Below the pieces are notes generated by a model that was given only the letters and a program-made list of their open reading frames with translations, was not told the DNA's origin and did not search any database. A stretch of 64,000 bases of DNA from Candidatus Hydrogenisulfobacillus filiaventi (GTDB lineage Bacteria > Bacillota > Sulfobacillia > Sulfobacillales > R501). Positions within the stretch are counted from its first letter, which is position 1, and each line of letters opens with the position of its first letter. The DNA lies in contig LR778114.1 of assembly GCA_902809825.1 (NCBI GenBank), forward strand, positions 310,001-374,000, written 5' to 3'. Positions 54,058 to 54,151 of this stretch are shown piece by piece. The position numbers and the translations under genes were made by a program.

Positions 54058-54151
54058 TGGAGGCGGCCGTTGGGAATCGAACCCAACCGGCCGGCAGCGC
54101 CGGCCGCCGATCGGTTTGCAGCCGATGGAGGGCACCAGCCCCAAGACCGCC
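54058..54151 (-). tRNA. tRNA-Cys (GCA) with a SelC-like long variable arm and 13-bp acceptor/T branch
   Basis: Length 94 nt including an encoded CCA (54058-54060). Acceptor GGCGGTC (5') pairs with GGCCGCC (3', one G-U). The D-arm is GGGGC-TGGT-GCCCT with a four-base loop. The anticodon arm is ATCGG-CTGCAAA-CCGAT, anticodon GCA at 54117-54119. The variable arm is a perfect 7-bp stem GGCCGGC-GCT-GCCGGCC (54089-54105 on the + strand). The T-arm is GTTGGG-TTCGATT-CCCAAC, six pairs, so acceptor plus T stem is 13 bp as in tRNA-Sec. The discriminator base is U, the CysRS identity base. Normal tRNA-Cys has a short variable loop and a 12-bp branch, so this is a SelC-shaped cysteine tRNA. The anticodon argues against tRNA-Sec (UCA), and U73 against Ser, Leu and Tyr. 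Confidence 0.85.

Follow-up and report, generated by a model that had tools for sequence, protein, structure and literature searches.

What does a bacterium do with a tRNA that carries a cysteine anticodon on the body of a selenocysteine tRNA? One such gene lies in the 64,000-nucleotide stretch of DNA from Candidatus Hydrogenisulfobacillus filiaventi that was analysed here (the window). An earlier sequence-only reading took it for an extra cysteine tRNA of a kind whose job is unclear. The name tRNA-ReC ('recoding with Cys') for tRNAs of this sort, and the idea that they safeguard selenoproteins, reportedly come from Vargas-Rodriguez et al. in 2018 (RNA Biol 15:471).

tRNA-Cys species of the selC* type occur in Firmicutes, Thermodesulfobacteria, Nitrospirae and Proteobacteria (PMC7609411), and a role in selenium scarcity has been stated for CysRS*/SelC* (PMC9437257). 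In Desulfotomaculum nigrificans, a tRNA-Sec-like tRNA-Cys with a GCA anticodon is delivered by SelB, not EF-Tu, and decodes selenocysteine UGA codons with cysteine, and in Aeromonas salmonicida the GCA anticodon belongs to a tRNA-Sec, which brings selenocysteine to UGC codons (PMC11415595). A job has therefore been reported for one SelC-like cysteine tRNA, that of D. nigrificans, and because of it 'probable tRNA-ReC' suits the window tRNA better than a description as one more reader of cysteine codons.

Cysteine identity on a tRNA-Sec-like body

ARAGORN finds a single tRNA in the window, a tRNA-Cys(gca) on the minus strand (Table 1). Its first half reads, 5´ to 3´, GGCGGUC-UU-GGGGC-UGGU-GCCCU-CC-AUCGG-CUGCAAA-CCGAU-CGG, followed by CGGCCGGC-GCU-GCCGGCCG-GUUGGG-UUCGAUU-CCCAAC-GGCCGCC-U-CCA. 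Both cysteine identity elements, U73 and the GCA anticodon, are present, as the sequence-only reading had stated. The body is tRNA-Sec-like, with a long variable arm, a 4-base D loop and a lengthened branch. Rfam assigns the molecule to the tRNA-Sec family RF01852 at 56.0 bits (gathering score 47), and it is absent from the genome-wide matches to the general tRNA family RF00005. The minimum-energy fold is a tRNA-Sec-like cloverleaf (-55.7 kcal/mol, z -3.3; as stable in none of 200 shuffles) in which U8 is unpaired and the anticodon stem has 5 bp. The acceptor and T stems together give 13 stacked pairs. The fold bears out the selenocysteine-tRNA body, the four-base D loop and the 13-bp branch claimed earlier from the letters, and shows neither the short variable loop nor the 12-bp branch that had been named as speaking against them; the variable arm is long as claimed, with 8 bp in place of 7. 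Promoter and terminator scans at the gene gave no consensus match.

Table 1. Features of the window tRNA (positions in the window)
Feature	Position	Strand	Basis
SelC-like tRNA-Cys(GCA), probable tRNA-ReC	54058..54151	-	ARAGORN; Rfam RF01852, 56 bits; fold; model R1, 77.8 bits
Acceptor stem (7 bp), 5´ strand GGCGGUC	54145..54151	-	fold
D arm: 5-bp stem GGGGC/GCCCU, tRNA-Sec-type 4-base loop UGGU	54129..54142	-	fold; alignment A1
Anticodon GCA within loop CUGCAAA	54117..54119	-	sequence; ARAGORN
Variable arm, long, 8 bp (CGGCCGGC/GCCGGCCG), 3-base loop GCU	54088..54106	-	fold
T arm: 6-bp stem GUUGGG/CCCAAC, loop UUCGAUU	54069..54087	-	fold
Acceptor stem, 3´ strand GGCCGCC, adjoining U73	54062..54068	-	fold
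U73	54061	-	encoded
CCA	54058-54060	-	encoded

Several known classes can be set beside this molecule. Canonical tRNA-Cys, with its 7/5 branch and short variable loop, does not match in the RF00005 search or the fold; the genome's own canonical tRNA-Cys shares the GCA anticodon, the CUGCAAA loop and U73 with the window tRNA but has this shorter branch and loop and lacks the tRNA-Sec D arm. Allo-tRNAs, which have a 12-bp branch (8/4 or 9/3) and serine identity, were likewise rejected against 13 pairs and U73. Like the tRNA-ReC of D. nigrificans, the window tRNA combines GCA, U73 and a tRNA-Sec-like body and occurs beside a canonical tRNA-Sec and SelB, although it belongs to another lineage and its 7+6 branch lacks the bulge that the T stem shows in the Desulfotomaculia sequences examined. 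With the selC* of Syntrophobacterales and Desulfobacterales (Mukai et al., 2017, in PMC7609411) it shares the nature of a tRNA-Sec-like tRNA-Cys with U73. Those molecules, however, have an 8-bp acceptor stem, a 4-bp T stem and a bulged A51a, features that the window tRNA lacks, and some have a UCA anticodon and A1:U72 (PMC7609411). They also come with a second SelB (selB*) and a second CysRS (cysS*), whereas no such linked paralogues were seen in the window's genome, which has one of each, elsewhere.

Genome context: a probable user of selenocysteine

The window's genome is complete (2.57 Mb). The absence of any other tRNA-Cys had been named as a point that would tell against the sequence-only reading, and an ordinary tRNA-Cys(GCA) is found at G000:C1:828690, within a Gly-Cys-Val cluster. 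A true tRNA-Sec(UCA) with G73 lies at 721712, SelB occurs once, at 1372828 (342.9 bits), and one CysRS exceeds the cut-off, at 2268100; no second SelB or CysRS passed the family cut-off. The window tRNA coexists with canonical tRNA-Sec, SelB and tRNA-Cys. Of the selenium genes that the earlier reading had proposed to look for, selB and selD are both present, and selD (L195, G000:C1:633392-634324) contains a single in-frame UGA where the active-site residue usually lies, in the motif MTSKSG-U-GCKLGP (MTSKSG-U-GCKLGPGDLDEA), with a 7-bp hairpin that begins 9 bases after it. The gene for formate dehydrogenase alpha (L198, G000:C1:1783580-1785442) also has one in-frame UGA (NRT-U-HAPSVVGL), and its SECIS candidate folds no better than shuffles. 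A search by motif, joined for some of these ORFs by a family scan, found no selA near selB, selD, tRNA-Sec or formate dehydrogenase.

With tRNA-Sec(UCA), SelB and UGA-containing genes for selD and formate dehydrogenase, the organism very probably uses selenocysteine. Since tRNA-Cys(GCA) and tRNA-Sec(UCA) are separate genes, in a genome with one CysRS and one SelB, the window tRNA is an extra gene in this probable selenocysteine user. To that extent the idea of an additional tRNA of cysteine identity, separate from the tRNA-Cys and tRNA-Sec that the genome also has, stands; what changes is its label, which is better given as a probable UGA-recoding tRNA.

Distribution and conservation

A pattern of a tRNA-Sec body with a GCA anticodon matched in 6 of 61 genomes, one of which is the genome of the window. 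A covariance model made from 27 homologues extended this search and found a SelC-like GCA tRNA in at least 13 of the 42 genomes from the window's order (G000, G004, G006, G008, G010, G012, G017, G019, G023, G024, G025, G034 and G035), as well as in one further genome of the class. Outside the order, a SelC-like tRNA with GCA and U73 is found at L225, in a genome (G173) that belongs to a different family of the class. The same pattern gave 59 loci in named genomes, 44 of them SelC-like by eye; the other fifteen, among them matches in Actinoplanes, Bacteroidota and archaea, were discounted as chance matches or unrelated tRNAs. The named carriers in Bacillota are Desulfotomaculia (Desulfofundulus, Desulfovirgula, Desulfoscipio) and Bacillota MAGs, and others belong to Nitrospirota, Thermosulfurimonas (Thermodesulfobacteria), deltaproteobacteria, an Elusimicrobia MAG, a Planctomycetota MAG and Cloacimonadota. 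The window tRNA is homologous to sequences from the reported host groups, Firmicutes, Nitrospirae, Thermodesulfobacteria and Proteobacteria.

In the alignment of 27, standard pairs fill 96.3% of pair cells and double changes occur at 15 of 23 pairs, with 121 double-change cells against a shuffle mean of 32.7; no shuffle reaches the covariation score. This covariation indicates that the structure has been kept. The anticodon loop is intact across phyla, and U73 and a mostly encoded CCA are kept. U73 was called in 37 of the 40 sequences from outside Cloacimonadota; three sequences in which CCA is missing from its expected position were called C automatically, and inspection by eye gave U73 for two of them. 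A tRNA-Sec(UCA) is also present in 36 of these 40 carrier genomes. selD with an in-frame UGA was found in 32 of 34 carrier genomes of the named scan (the other two gave a C-terminal fragment only or no match). In the window's order all 38 genomes with selD have the UGA form, which is therefore general background there and not a mark of tRNA-ReC carriers.

Neighbouring genes

The earlier view that the window tRNA stands alone among unrelated genes agrees with its ten flanking ORFs, none of which is a selenium gene. The same holds for its relatives in the order; all adjoin genes for DUF2231, Nramp, peptidase or other proteins. At the named loci from outside Cloacimonadota, a selenium gene lies within about 2.3 kb in 22 of 39 cases, and its strand is nearly always that of the tRNA. 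These neighbours are YedF (TIGR03527), seleno_YedE (TIGR04112), the regulator LysR_Sec_metab (NF040786) and SelB (TIGR00475), their names checked on representatives and the rest assigned via cluster models.

In fifteen loci (L066, L070, L075, L090, L097, L098, L101, L102, L105, L106, L107, L111, L115, L116 and L122) the tRNA shares its strand with yedE or yedF, which it often directly precedes, and/or lies behind the selenium-associated LysR regulator. The arrangement suggests co-expression of tRNA-ReC with selenium uptake; we did not meet this linkage in the review literature, and it is possibly already in primary papers. A SelB homologue follows about 100 bases downstream of the tRNA in L065, L069, L076 and L092; L069 comes from a MAG labelled Nitrospira and falls outside the pair of deltaproteobacterial groups that the review names. 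In the Nitrospirota loci L101, L107 and L122, a gene for a split-Soret cytochrome c-like C_GCAxxG_C_C protein lies a short way downstream of the tRNA, and at two of these loci it comes between the tRNA and yedF.

Proposed role

We regard the window tRNA, with good confidence and by analogy with D. nigrificans, as a tRNA-ReC (selC*-type tRNA-Cys) that would insert cysteine at UGA via SelB; it is a real and conserved molecule, and probably a functional one. Given U73 and the GCA anticodon, the single CysRS of the cell would recognise the tRNA and load it with cysteine. Its 13-bp branch and long variable arm may, as in the D. nigrificans homologue, keep it off EF-Tu and let SelB carry it to UGA codons with a following SECIS hairpin, where cysteine would replace selenocysteine despite the mismatch between GCA anticodon and UGA codon. 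Candidate targets in this genome are the UGA codons of selD and a formate dehydrogenase. The likely role, again by analogy, is to serve as a back-up that puts cysteine into selenoproteins during a shortage of selenium, so that selenoenzymes would stay full-length and partly active. More speculatively, since SelD is one of the selenoproteins, a version of it with cysteine might allow the selenium pathway to start up again. It is conceivable, if doubtful, that in this order tRNA-ReC mainly bootstraps the selenium pathway via cysteine at the selD UGA, the 7+6 branch being a further SelB-readable architecture. A selenoprotein needed for selenocysteine synthesis would then be made without selenocysteine. 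Against tRNA-ReC we count that no selenium gene is adjacent, that there is no promoter or terminator match and no 8/4 bulge, and that selA was not located where sought.

The kind of molecule is already known; what the window tRNA adds is a new, conserved case from a single bacterial lineage, with a branch that differs slightly. It extends the range of tRNA-ReC by a further order of Bacillota, with complete genomes, and offers clear target codons in selD and formate dehydrogenase. The position of such tRNAs beside genes for selenium uptake and regulation across phyla links them with the supply of selenium and opens the back-up idea to testing.

Alternative explanations

An auxiliary cysteine tRNA that reads ordinary UGC and UGU codons through EF-Tu would account for GCA, which pairs perfectly with both, and for U73, which suits CysRS. 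We consider it improbable, however, as the genome already has a canonical tRNA-Cys, the 13-bp branch is of the tRNA-Sec type, a homologue is reported to lack EF-Tu interaction (PMC11415595), and homologues adjoin selenium genes, selB among them. In other lineages the tRNA directly precedes yedF or yedE and shares its strand, which could instead point to a non-decoding RNA, either a cysteine donor for a tRNA-dependent enzyme or a regulator of selenium genes. The intact anticodon loop, U73 and mostly encoded CCA kept across phyla speak against this, as does the lack of a candidate target gene adjoining the tRNA in the window's order, and we give it little credence. Least probable of all is a decaying, functionless duplicate of tRNA-Sec or tRNA-Cys: a stand-alone gene with no promoter match would fit, but perfect stems, compensatory changes and retention in at least 13 genomes of the order would not.

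Such tRNAs with tRNA-Sec bodies and GCA anticodons do exist (PMC11415595), and the window tRNA, which has both, could accordingly be a tRNA-Sec that brings selenocysteine to chosen UGC or UGU codons as in A. salmonicida. This, too, we judge very unlikely. tRNA-Sec has G73 for serylation, and G73 is what the examined tRNA-Sec(UCA) genes have, whereas the window tRNA has U73; its genome also has a UCA tRNA-Sec and selenoprotein genes with UGA. The sequences that do fit differ at exactly these points. At five loci in Cloacimonadota MAGs (L074, L099, L100, L114 and L120) the tRNA is SelC-like with a GCA anticodon and G73, and these genomes show no second match, hence no UCA tRNA-Sec, over the Rfam tRNA-Sec cut-off. 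Their selD is without UGA and has UGC at the active site in the two that were read (L244 and L245). The Cloacimonadota tRNAs appear to be tRNA-Sec(GCA), the second GCA class that is known, and UGC may be a selenocysteine codon in these bacteria.
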